Assembly (NCBI GenBank): GCA_029861535.1
Contig: JAOTZC010000010.1
Location: forward strand, 1 to 64,000
Length of the DNA stretch: 64,000 nt
Direction: 5' to 3'
Source of the DNA: Gammaproteobacteria bacterium
GTDB lineage: Bacteria; Pseudomonadota; Gammaproteobacteria; Steroidobacterales; Woeseiaceae
Shown here: in pieces, positions 35,857 to 63,408 of the stretch
How the letters are laid out: each line of letters begins with the position of its first letter
Position numbering within the stretch: position 1 is the stretch's first letter
Notes under the pieces: model-generated
Databases searched by the model: none
Seen by the model: the letters and a program-made list of their open reading frames with translations, nothing else
Told to the model about the DNA's origin: nothing
Program-made: the position numbers and the translations under genes

Positions 35857-36177
35857 TTGTGCGCTCGTAGAATAGCACTAACAGCAATGTGATTGATTTG
35901 AATCACGAGCTTGCAAGAAATCAGGGATTTTCTACTGCACAAGCAAGACTAAGTGGGCTGTGCACGAAGACATCCAGCCGGCGATCTTCGAGCTCAACGA
36001 GTCTATGTCTACGCAATCGACATGTTGAATACATGATTGCGGTTCGGGGCGGCGATTATGTAGAACCAATACCACCCTGATTTTGATGTACTTTTGCATG
36101 TTGTCCTACGCAGGTCGCAGTTCTATCGCCCATGTGTTGACAGCTACTTTCGGATTGTGAAACTCTGCGCCGAGCAA
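35857..36177. other. Gene-poor region before the riboswitch-like leader
   Basis: About 320 bp with no supported gene. The track's 63-aa frame (35889-36080) is serine/arginine-rich and has no Shine-Dalgarno, so I reject it. The region holds a probable FNR-type dyad near its left end and leads into a c-di-GMP-I-like aptamer at its right end. A promoter for the membrane/VWA operon is expected here; TTGACA at 36138-36143 is a possible -35 element, but no good -10 sequence follows at the right spacing. Confidence 0.5.
35893..35906. promoter_or_regulatory. FNR/Anr-type dyad TTGAT-N4-ATCAC
   Basis: The sequence TTGATTTGAATCAC matches the FNR consensus TTGAT-N4-ATCAA at 9 of 10 positions. It lies 37 bp upstream of the minus-strand start at 35856 and about 350 bp before the plus-strand ATG at 36253, so the minus-strand gene is the likelier target. 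A single match in a 64-kb window could be chance. Confidence 0.4.
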
Positions 36178-36252
36178 TGACAAAGGCACACCTTTCGCGA
36201 GGAAGGGTCGCAACGCCACCGGTCTCGGTTCTTGTTAGACAGCAGGGTTACC
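36178..36252 (+). ncRNA. Candidate c-di-GMP-I (GEMM-I) riboswitch, degenerate
   Basis: The segment reads TGACAAAGGCACACC, then a P2 hairpin CCTTTC-GCGA-GGAAGG with a GNRA loop, then GGGTCGCAACGCC. A short P3 (GTCT/AGAC) and AGCAGGGTTACC lead directly into ATG 36253. GGC 36185-36187 pairs with GCC 36215-36217. The spacing between these elements is the same, base for base, as in the clear riboswitch at 62755-62787. Differences from consensus are GGCAAACC to GGCACACC and GACGCAAAGCC to GTCGCAACGCC. The start codon lies at the aptamer 3' end, suggesting translational control. Confidence 0.65.
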
Positions 36253-37674
36253 ATGATGAGTTTTTTCCTGAGCATTACGCCTTGGCCCGTTCTATCCGCA
36301 TTGTTGTGGATCGTTCTGGCTGTCGCAACTTTGTATTTCGCGCGTCCGACGTCGCACCGACTCATAAAGGCCGCGAGCAATTCACTGTACAAGGTGTTTC
36401 GAGCCGCGTCATTGGCGGTGACCAAGGCGGAGAACGGTCTTGCGACGAGAAATCGCGAAGTGCTGTTGGCGGCGGGACGGGAGGCAAAAGAACGCATTGT
36501 CGAACGCGAGTTTGATCGAATCAACGAAACCGTTCGCAAAGATTTGGCGAACTACTCGTCGTTACATCGCGGTCTCAGCGAATCGATCGACCGCATTGAA
36601 AAAGATCATCAAGACGCTGTAGACGTTCCACCCGATCCGCCTGGTTGGGTCAAGGCGGTAGAAGCGGTCGCAAAAATCGAGTCGCGAGACGGACGAGTCG
36701 GCGTCAGTAACATATTGAGTGACATTCACAAATCGCTGGTCCAGGCGCACAAGGAAGCCATGCTCGCGTATCGCGAGGCCAGCAAAGAGCGTCATACGCT
36801 TCTGAGGAAAATGCGACCGGAATGGCGCCGCATTCAGCAAATCCTTGGCAAAGTCGGCAAGAACGTCGACAGTCTGTTGGGCCGATCGGTCACGATTGAT
36901 CGCCATATGCAGGAGTATGAGGATATCGTTAAAGGCGAGGACCACGCGGTGTCGATACTGTCATCTTCGTCGTTGGTCTACTTTTTCGTATCGGCGCTTG
37001 TACTCGTCGTGGCAATTGGCGGCGCCGTGATCAACTTCTCACTGATCGCCCGGCCGATGGCGGAGATGGTCGGGGGCACCAACTTAATCGGTGGGTTCCG
37101 AACGGCCGACATTGCGGCCTTGGTCATCATCATGGTTGAGATATCCATGGGCTTGTTTCTGATGGAGTCTCTGCGCATCACCCGATTGTTTCCGGTTATA
37201 GGTGCGCTACCGGACAAGACCCGCGTGCGCATGATCTGGATTACGTTCACGATCCTGTTCTTACTTGCTAGCGTCGAAGCGGGACTTGCCTATATGCGCG
37301 AGTTACTACTGCATGACGAGCTGGCAACCAGTGCGCTGTTGCGGGGTGACCTCGATATTGCGACAACCAGCGGTTCTATGTGGATTACGACGGCGGCGCA
37401 GATGGGTATGGGTTTCATATTGCCATTTGCGCTGACATTTGTCGCCATTCCGCTGGAAACGTTCGTCCACTCGATGCGCACTGTCATCGGTTTGTTGGCA
37501 ATTGGTACTCTCAGAGTGCTGTCGCTGATATTTCGGCTTGTCGGCAGTACTTGCCGTTATCTCGGCGTACTCATCACTCAGCTGTATGACCTACCGTTAT
37601 TTATCCCTCTATGGTGGGCGGCGCGTGAGAAGGATGTCTCCGACGGCGGCGGATTGCAGGAGTTACGCTCATGA
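36253..37674 (+). CDS. Polytopic membrane protein with a coiled-coil region, riboswitch-associated
   Basis: 473 aa from ATG 36253 (AGGG upstream; the track's TTG is inside the aptamer). An N-terminal membrane segment (PWPVLSALLWIVLAVATLYF) is followed by about 200 charged residues with helical, coiled-coil character. At least four membrane segments come next: LVYFFVSALVLVVAIGGAVI, IAALVIIMVEISMGLFLM, IWITFTILFLLASVEAGLAY and MGMGFILPFALTFVAIPL. No family recognised. Its stop overlaps the ATG of the VWA lipoprotein gene (ATGA), so the two products probably act together at the cell envelope under c-di-GMP control. Confidence 0.8.
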   Translation: MMSFFLSITPWPVLSALLWIVLAVATLYFARPTSHRLIKAASNSLYKVFRAASLAVTKAENGLATRNREVLLAAGREAKERIVEREFDRINETVRKDLANYSSLHRGLSESIDRIEKDHQDAVDVPPDPPGWVKAVEAVAKIESRDGRVGVSNILSDIHKSLVQAHKEAMLAYREASKERHTLLRKMRPEWRRIQQILGKVGKNVDSLLGRSVTIDRHMQEYEDIVKGEDHAVSILSSSSLVYFFVSALVLVVAIGGAVINFSLIARPMAEMVGGTNLIGGFRTADIAALVIIMVEISMGLFLMESLRITRLFPVIGALPDKTRVRMIWITFTILFLLASVEAGLAYMRELLLHDELATSALLRGDLDIATTSGSMWITTAAQMGMGFILPFALTFVAIPLETFVHSMRTVIGLLAIGTLRVLSLIFRLVGSTCRYLGVLITQLYDLPLFIPLWWAAREKDVSDGGGLQELRS

Positions 37675-62565: not shown

Positions 62566-62616
62566 TTTTCGGACAAATACTACTCGATTGAATGTCTGCG
62601 TAGCGCCCGAAAGCCG

Positions 62617-62667
62617 CCATTCGGGTAATATCGGTGCGAAAGGCCGCTAATGACCCAAAGCGGACGT
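62617..62667. repeat. Dispersed degenerate repeat, copy 1
   Basis: Begins CCGAAAGCCGCCATTC and ends AATGAC-N5-GCGGACGT. The same two blocks in the same order, with 14 of 16 identical bases in the first and longer spacing before the second, recur at 63507-63575. The pair flanks the riboswitch-controlled secreted-protein gene. Sequences of this style are common as scattered repeats in proteobacterial genomes; no mobility gene is attached. Confidence 0.55.
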
Positions 62668-62740
62668 GAATCGAAATACGCTTTCGTACTTCGTCTTGAC
62701 AATTATCATGGCACCCTCGTGTCTCGCGATGTAGTTTTAC

Positions 62741-62858
62741 TACCGTGTGACAAAGGCAAACCTGACCAAAGTCAGGGACGCAAAGCCACGGGTCCTCGCT
62801 TCCTCCGAGAAGCCATAATCGACTCCCCGAAGGACCCAAGATCGCCGGGCTGCCGAGT
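62741..62858 (+). ncRNA. c-di-GMP-I (GEMM-I) riboswitch
   Basis: The core reads GTGACAAAGGCAAACC, P2 CCTGAC-CAAA-GTCAGG, GGGACGCAAAGCC, then P3 GGGTCCT (62790-62796) pairing with AGGACCC (62831-62837), and GCCGGGCTGCCGA. This reproduces the GEMM-I consensus almost letter for letter. By hand alignment to the Vc2 aptamer the G20 and A47 positions are kept, which favours c-di-GMP over cGAMP. It ends about 44 bp before the ATG of a secreted protein, and a dyad lies between. Confidence 0.9.
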
Positions 62859-62872
62859 GATCGTCCGATCAC
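62857..62872 (+). promoter_or_regulatory. Hairpin in the riboswitch expression platform
   Basis: GTGATC-GTCC-GATCAC, which can extend by one G-C pair, directly follows the aptamer and precedes the AGGAGA Shine-Dalgarno at 62889-62894. No T-run follows, so regulation by translation is more likely than by termination. Confidence 0.55.
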
Positions 62873-62901
62873 GATCCAATCAAGCCAAGAGGAGACATGC
62901 C

Positions 62902-63408
62902 ATGAAGCTTCCAGTAGTTATTGCGATATGTGTAGGCCTTATTTTGTCGGGGGCTGCCCAGTCGGGTGAGATTAAGTACAACCAGCGGTTCTCCGGTGTG
63001 GGTTACTCAACCAGCATCGATACGAATGATGATGGGCTCTTCGCCAGTGCCTTCACCTTTCAGTCCAAAGGGAGTCCTGGCAAATCGACGACTCAGTCTG
63101 TGGGAGAGTTCAAACCCATGTTGCCCGGCGCCGGTTGCGACCTCCAATCCGAACTCGTGCAACAGAGCTTTGTCTCGACGTTCAAAGACGGCTCCATGCT
63201 CTTCCACGTAACCACAGCCGCACAAACCTGCATAACCTTCTTGCCCTTCAGTTTTACTGGGCACCTAGAGGGAACCATCACCGGCGGCACCGGACGTTTC
63301 GACGGAGCGACCGGCACGTGGACAACTGAGTTCGAAGCCTGGGCAGTTGGTGAGACTGTGAGTGCCGCGATTGGAACCACCAAAGGGACAATAATCGTTC
63401 CTGATTGA
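62902..63408 (+). CDS. Small secreted protein under c-di-GMP riboswitch control
   Basis: 168 aa from ATG 62902, with AGGAGA 8 nt upstream; the track's earlier start lies upstream of the aptamer. Signal peptide KLPVVIAICVGLILSGAAQSG. The mature domain is beta-rich, with glycine-threonine repeats near its end (GHLEGTITGGTGRFDGATGTWTTEFEAWAVG). This resembles the allene-oxide-cyclase-like barrels seen in some secreted hypothetical proteins, where a G-TGRF motif is common. Two cysteines (GCDLQ, TCITF) may form a disulfide. Possible matrix or adhesion role, given the riboswitch; unproven. Confidence 0.8.
   Translation: MKLPVVIAICVGLILSGAAQSGEIKYNQRFSGVGYSTSIDTNDDGLFASAFTFQSKGSPGKSTTQSVGEFKPMLPGAGCDLQSELVQQSFVSTFKDGSMLFHVTTAAQTCITFLPFSFTGHLEGTITGGTGRFDGATGTWTTEFEAWAVGETVSAAIGTTKGTIIVPD

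Follow-up and report, generated by a model that had tools for sequence, protein, structure and literature searches.

Does a short RNA element near the end of a Woeseiaceae contig act as a genuine c-di-GMP sensor, to which class of sensor does it belong and which genes does it control? The locus lies in a stretch of 64,000 nucleotides (hereafter the window, to which all positions refer), in which the original prediction had placed a c-di-GMP-I riboswitch in front of the gene of a small exported beta-rich protein. A search with the RF01051 (GEMM-I) covariance model, the check proposed at that time, returned a match and not the absence of one, with 62.2 bits for a gathering score of 35, and a cmscan of the whole window recovered the same interval with RF03167 (c-di-GMP-I-GGC) at 66.8 bits for a gathering score of 59 (E 1.3e-13). 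Since both scores exceed the gathering scores, the aptamer is far above chance, and an ortholog of the downstream gene is preceded by the same switch. The element is a true c-di-GMP-I riboswitch aptamer, of a form named here the long subtype, and the prediction of a c-di-GMP-I switch in the leader of this gene is borne out by the covariance models and by the ortholog. Coordinates are collected in Table 1.

Table 1. Features of the riboswitch locus and of its target gene in the window
Feature	Position	Strand	Basis
Upstream box TTGACAATTATCATGGCACCCTCGTGTCT, TTGAC-N4-GTCAA-like, then GG-N-G-Y-CCT-Y-GTG; probable promoter/operator	62696-62724	+	
c-di-GMP-I riboswitch aptamer, long subtype	62746-62858	+	RF03167 66.8 bits; RF01051 62.2 bits; long-type model R1 129.2 bits (window copy inside the R1 training set, score to be read accordingly)
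G20-equivalent ligand residue	62755	+	Alignment to RF03167; G in 113 of 121 non-redundant long switches
P2 hairpin, including GC/GC base, stem CCUGAC/GUCAGG and loop CAAA (62767-62770)	62756-62781	+	Covariation, 49 sequences
A47-equivalent ligand residue	62782	+	Alignment to RF03167 (consensus G there); A in 120 of 121 long switches
P3 5' strand AGCCACGGGUC, partner 62840-62851	62784-62794	+	RF03167 alignment, pair counts
P3b insert: CUCGCU, helix UCCUCCG (62801-62807) / CGAAGGA (62828-62834), variable distal loop, CCCAA	62795-62839	+	
C92-equivalent ligand residue	62853	+	Alignment to RF03167; C in 120 of 121 long switches
Dyad GTGATC-GTCC-GATCAC	62857-62872 (arms 62857-62862 and 62867-62872)	+	Present in the sequence
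Shine-Dalgarno AGAGGAG	62888-62894	+	7 nt before the ATG at 62902
168-aa probable exported protein, signal peptide MKLPVVIAICVGLILSGAAQS, two family-wide cysteines, GGTGRFxxATG motif	62902-63408	+	

The residues that contact the ligand in Vc2 are named G20, A47 and C92 (PMC11218506), and they bear directly on the identity of the ligand. The score of RF03167, a variant family of c-di-GMP-I, is higher than that of RF01051 by 4.6 bits, and 8 of the 121 long switches, all in other genomes, carry an A at the G20 position, a change known to favour 3',3'-cGAMP (PMC6274999); both observations would fit a switch sensing 3',3'-cGAMP or another dinucleotide. The window copy, however, has all three of G20, A47 and C92, and at model position 37 of RF03167, the A47 equivalent for which this family has a consensus G, it carries an A, as do 120 of the 121 long switches. 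From these residues the window RNA is of c-di-GMP type and c-di-GMP binding is predicted, the sensing of a different dinucleotide being very improbable. RF03167 shares the P3 sequence CACGGGUC...CCGGGCUGCC with the window switch and gives its best Rfam score, but differs by its G at position 37 and by a short P3b, which is long here. The eight switches with an A at the G20-equivalent position are L097, L212, L156, L149, L178, L190, L207 and L263, and some of them could reflect shifts in the alignment.

Conservation of the ligand residues also matters for the question of whether the RNA still works. Relic switches behind intact promoter boxes exist in the genus and a degenerate copy (C6, 73 bits) is present in the same genome, so that the window element might itself be the decayed, non-functional remnant of a formerly regulated gene. 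Against this, it is among the best-scoring copies of all (129 bits, with a model trained on a set that includes it), all its ligand residues are kept and the ortholog also retains its switch; we regard such decay as extremely improbable. The window holds a second c-di-GMP-I switch at 36175-36255 (+; 49.4 bits), ending at the start codon of a gene for a probable membrane protein of about 473 aa (ORF from about 36253). Its P3 overlaps the ribosome-binding region, making it a candidate direct-occlusion switch devoid of a separate expression platform.

A search of the genus with RF03167 gave matches in 41 of 41 genomes, and 100 loci retrieved from it, set beside the copies of the own genome, fall into two types. 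Short switches are mostly 81-89 nt long, with a few up to 102 nt, and long ones mostly 104-115 nt, with one of 92 nt; the window copy belongs to the latter. The alignment of 49 long copies gathered from one Woeseiaceae genus (A1), analysed with RNAalifold, shows the canonical P2 and P3, the former with strong covariation, plus a helix in P3b. The two types diverge in the P2 loop and in the receptor. The P2 loop is a GNRA tetraloop in 55 of 56 short switches versus 12 of 47 long ones (Fisher p about 4e-16, for sequences that are related and not independent), the long type having NAAA loops (CAAA, GAAA, AAAA or UAAA) with an A as second base in all but one of the 121 non-redundant long switches. 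Likewise, most short switches carry one or both halves of the 11-nt receptor CUAAGG...CCUANGA, whereas by pattern neither half was found in 43 of 47 long switches, and both halves in none of the 47. In place of this receptor, long switches carry CACGGGUCCUCGCUUCC...GGACCC(C)AAGAUCGCCGGG, and a near-invariant CUCG(C/U)YUCC...CAAGA insert fills P3b, its ends near-invariant over the 121 sequences and located where short switches have the 11-nt receptor. In the 121-sequence set, whose alignment made no use of structure, 81% of the pairs in the P3b helix UCCUCCG/CGAAGGA are standard, versus 39-60% when slid; the helix has 23 double-changed cells and takes forms such as UCCCUCU/AGAGGGA and UCCUUCU/AGAAGGA in Acidobacteriota. 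For a possible alternative helix, GGGUCCU/AGGACCC, 93% of the pairs are standard, but a shift by one position still leaves 79%, and the double-changed cells number only two. The window element is not the near-consensus GEMM-I switch of the original description but one of the long subtype, with a CAAA loop in P2 and no 11-nt receptor.

Published c-di-GMP-I switches are divided into type I, with a GNRA loop on P2 and a matching tetraloop receptor in P3, and type II, usually with a GYRA loop and no receptor (PMC11218506). The long form has the two-hairpin P2/P3 core and the G20/A47/C92 ligand residues of type I (Vc2, Bc1), but the GNRA loop and the P3 receptor of the latter are replaced in the window copy by CAAA and by a conserved P3b insert of about 45 nt. 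It shares with type II the lack of the GNRA receptor and differs from it by its NAAA loop and by another conserved internal loop. It thus fits neither type and is apparently undescribed. The Mg2+ riboswitch offers a precedent for docking by a CAAA loop (PMC3764141), which makes the docking of an NAAA loop that is not GNRA plausible by analogy; that the P3b internal loop (5' CUCGCU / 3' CCCAA) is its receptor, in replacement of the 11-nt one, is a structural guess. What is new here is the long subtype itself and the number of genes that stand behind it.

The distribution of the long form extends beyond the family. Its 25-base core matched at least 112 stretches in GTDB contigs; the matches listed come from Woeseiaceae and Chromatiales, from Acidobacteriota (Thermoanaerobaculia among them), from Gemmatimonadota and from a small number of further taxa. 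Of 274 class members sampled evenly, three genomes reached scores above 100 bits, the strength of the long type: the one that holds the window, a second of its genus and a third belonging to a different family. Copies from Acidobacteriota and Gemmatimonadota have diverged in P2, in the distal stem of P3b and in the flanks, with insert ends still near-invariant. They look genuine, since they are more divergent and since the promoter box of Woeseiaceae (see below) was found in 0 of 15 of them. The single matches in Rubricoccaceae and Acidimicrobiia, which have this box, may be mis-binned. A phage origin of the long switch was rejected, no match to the long-type core being found in viral contigs.

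These comparisons weigh on a more conservative explanation, according to which the RNA is an ordinary c-di-GMP-I switch with a longer P3b, the insert serves no particular function and the likeness among copies comes from recent duplication in one lineage. The ligand core is indeed canonical and caught by the Rfam models, and many copies within one family look like duplicates, decayed relics included. Yet the insert ends are near-invariant in Acidobacteriota and Gemmatimonadota copies that are otherwise diverged, and switches that lack the 11-nt receptor are also freed from the need for a GNRA loop, so that we consider this explanation unlikely. The alternative that we prefer, a distinct long subtype, is kept in the following.

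Downstream of the aptamer, 43 nt separate its end from the start of the 168-aa gene, and the Shine-Dalgarno, start codon and reading frame are as originally described. The ortholog (66% protein identity) agrees in start methionine, frame and signal peptide, and its switch, too, lies directly upstream. A longer frame from 62650 was rejected, because it crosses the riboswitch and the ortholog starts at the same methionine. Identity between window and ortholog is 86% for the switch, 71% for the linker and 73% for the coding sequence; the dN/dS of 0.24/0.89 (about 0.27) indicates that the protein is under purifying selection. The window neighbour genes tested were not found beside the ortholog. 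A dyad had been noted after the aptamer, and is present in the window, but the ortholog linker GATCAACAATCTACGATC keeps GATC and not the 6-bp dyad, and a conserved expression platform at this place was therefore rejected. At 62897-62905, ATGCCATGA forms a mini-ORF of two codons, whose stop and the ATG of the 168-aa gene overlap.

The protein itself fits none of the curated families. Homologs occur in the order, several of them also behind c-di-GMP-I switches, and share two invariant cysteines and a GG-xx-RF-xx-A-x-G motif. Of the Gly/Thr-rich repeats reported initially, no tandem repeat was found at the DNA level, and what exists is one motif, ITGGTGRFDGATG. A scan of GTDB contigs with the single 168-aa protein found nothing. 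With Dirigent (PF03018, threshold 29.1) the window protein reached 13 bits (E 0.088), and four of nine family members matched weakly (best E 0.0049), none at the Pfam cut-off. An hhalign comparison with true Dirigent relatives aligned 26 columns, in the motif region, at 21% probability, and a profile search of the PDB gave one marginal match, the pyocyanin demethylase PodA (5k21, E 0.91). An AlphaFold2 model built from three sequences (pLDDT 37.6) was too poor for a fold search. Dirigent/allene-oxide-cyclase barrels and PodA are likewise small, exported and beta-rich with a GGTGRFxGATG-type motif, but only this motif region can be aligned and no member reaches the Pfam cut-off; such a barrel is a lead, not a result, and the sole hint of ancestry. 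Export of the protein is probable from its signal peptide. The proposal of an extracellular factor, possibly a matrix component, is retained for the switch and the probable export; nothing points to the matrix.

In Woeseiaceae a common promoter box, GTACATCCCAGAATTGAC or a near variant of it with an ATAAT-like -10 behind it, stands before 41 of 49 long switches and 0 of 57 short ones, as scored on its GAATTGAC part. A pattern search found it in 12 of 36 genomes, and the reversed control gave no match. Among 20 more box sites that were read, 3 have intact long switches, several have decayed ones and about half have none, and the box can therefore outlive the RNA or occur on its own. Decayed long switches, reduced to relics of P2 and P3, lie between an intact box and a gene at L273, L274, L277, L280, L282, L287 and L289, and suggest that at these loci the RNA was lost and the promoter kept. 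The window switch has a different box, TTGACAATTATCATGGCACCCTCGTG, common to a paralog on contig C10 and to the ortholog, which has TTGACATTTGTCAAGGTGTCCTCGTGCCT at the corresponding place. With up to three mismatches, this type was found only twice in the own genome, each time ahead of a long switch, and nowhere in 35 relatives, a set outside which the genome of the ortholog lies. No sigma-70 consensus promoter was found upstream of the window switch. A dispersed degenerate intergenic repeat of the GACCCAAAGCGGAC type occupies 62600-62680 and is also present upstream of many long-switch cassettes.

Concerning the output of the switch, no terminator lies between the aptamer and the ATG in the window, and terminator-based control was rejected on this ground. 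The short gap and the lack of a terminator suggest an output at the level of translation or of mRNA stability. By computation, the window leader loses about 10-13 kcal/mol of stability relative to its free ensemble when it adopts the aptamer fold, so that aptamer folding would depend on tertiary contacts and on the ligand. We propose that G20, A47 and C92 would hold c-di-GMP where P1, P2 and P3 meet, that the CAAA loop of P2 probably docks into the P3b internal loop, and that ligand binding would refold the short leader, most likely altering the translation or the stability of the mRNA of the exported protein.

The CU-rich insert UCCUCGCUUCCUCC could alternatively act as an anti-Shine-Dalgarno, base-pairing to the ribosome-binding site in the absence of c-di-GMP, which would make the RNA a translational ON switch with its platform inside the aptamer. 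In the free ensemble, pairing between Shine-Dalgarno and aptamer amounts to 46% in 78 long versus 1.4% in 21 short leaders, enforcing the aptamer raises Shine-Dalgarno accessibility in 31 leaders and lowers it in 8, and the minimum free energy structure of the window pairs GAGGA of the Shine-Dalgarno with UCCUC. Shuffling the insert at constant dinucleotide content nevertheless left this pairing equal (0.456 versus 0.453, p 0.58), and in the window copy the real pairing (0.02) is below the shuffled one (0.30). The computed accessibility of the window Shine-Dalgarno is unchanged when the aptamer is formed (0.59 to 0.58). An anti-Shine-Dalgarno platform inside P3b was rejected as the insert-shuffle control gives it no support, and we judge an anti-Shine-Dalgarno role of the insert decidedly unlikely. 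Because the shuffled insert pairs equally well, the insert is more likely structural. The sign of the response is slightly in favour of ON, by the weak computed trend and by the precedent of Vc1/gbpA in Vibrio cholerae, an ON switch on the gene of a secreted protein which establishes that surface and adhesion genes are placed under c-di-GMP-I switches (PMC4744006). The two systems share a c-di-GMP-I switch on a secreted-protein gene, but gbpA encodes an unrelated chitin-binding adhesin and has a leader of 225 nt.

The window gene would belong to a group of unrelated genes, the majority encoding exported proteins, that stand behind the long RNA and usually have its dedicated box as well. Using a signal-peptide heuristic, 68 of 85 long-type targets (about 80%) were classified as secretory; for short-type targets the count was 21 of 31 and for window genes 8 of 30. 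These figures are indicative only, the heuristic being crude and the ORF picker slightly favouring hydrophobic N-termini. Pfam assignments among 73 long-type target proteins include beta-helix (5), NosD (4), GDSL lipase (3) and OsmC (2), as well as single cases of subtilase, papain-like protease, pectin acetylesterase and CBM; lipoproteins are also among the targets. The median gap from aptamer to ATG is 41 nt for long and 110 nt for short switches. From these gene contents, Woeseiaceae appear to have placed the long switch before many unrelated genes, mostly for exported proteins. Cytoplasmic-looking genes recur behind it in several species (L057 and L077, OsmC; L050, L089 and L092, 77 aa; L051, L060 and L169, 168-171 aa), and the regulon is therefore not composed of exported proteins only. 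Short c-di-GMP-I switches have a recurrent target of their own, located about 95-121 nt before a gene of about 310 aa (MNVVIFGKG..., probably an M23-type peptidase) in many Woeseiaceae genomes (L002, L108, L111, L114, L116, L117, L118, L120, L122, L124, L126, L138, L139, L140, L143 and L147). The next gene in L002 looks like secA, and a conserved c-di-GMP control of an M23-type/secA operon seems possible.

Taken as a whole, the account of a long-subtype aptamer that docks, refolds its leader, acts on translation or mRNA stability and serves a set of mostly exported-protein genes appears likely to us. The broader proposal, in which the NAAA loop with its CUCGCU-CCCAA partner defines a third structural subtype and in Woeseiaceae forms with the box a portable cassette through which each genome subjects many unrelated genes for exported proteins to transcriptional and c-di-GMP control together, is advanced tentatively, with a little less than an even chance of being right. 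Our literature search found no paper mentioning both Woeseiaceae and c-di-GMP. If the structural subtype is true, it would represent a natural swap of the GAAA/11-nt receptor for another loop-receptor pair in the same ligand-binding RNA. The Woeseiaceae, a family of marine sediments represented here by metagenome-assembled genomes only, would then use c-di-GMP switches at a large scale, and dozens of unknown proteins would be tied to one lifestyle decision, namely which exported proteins are made.
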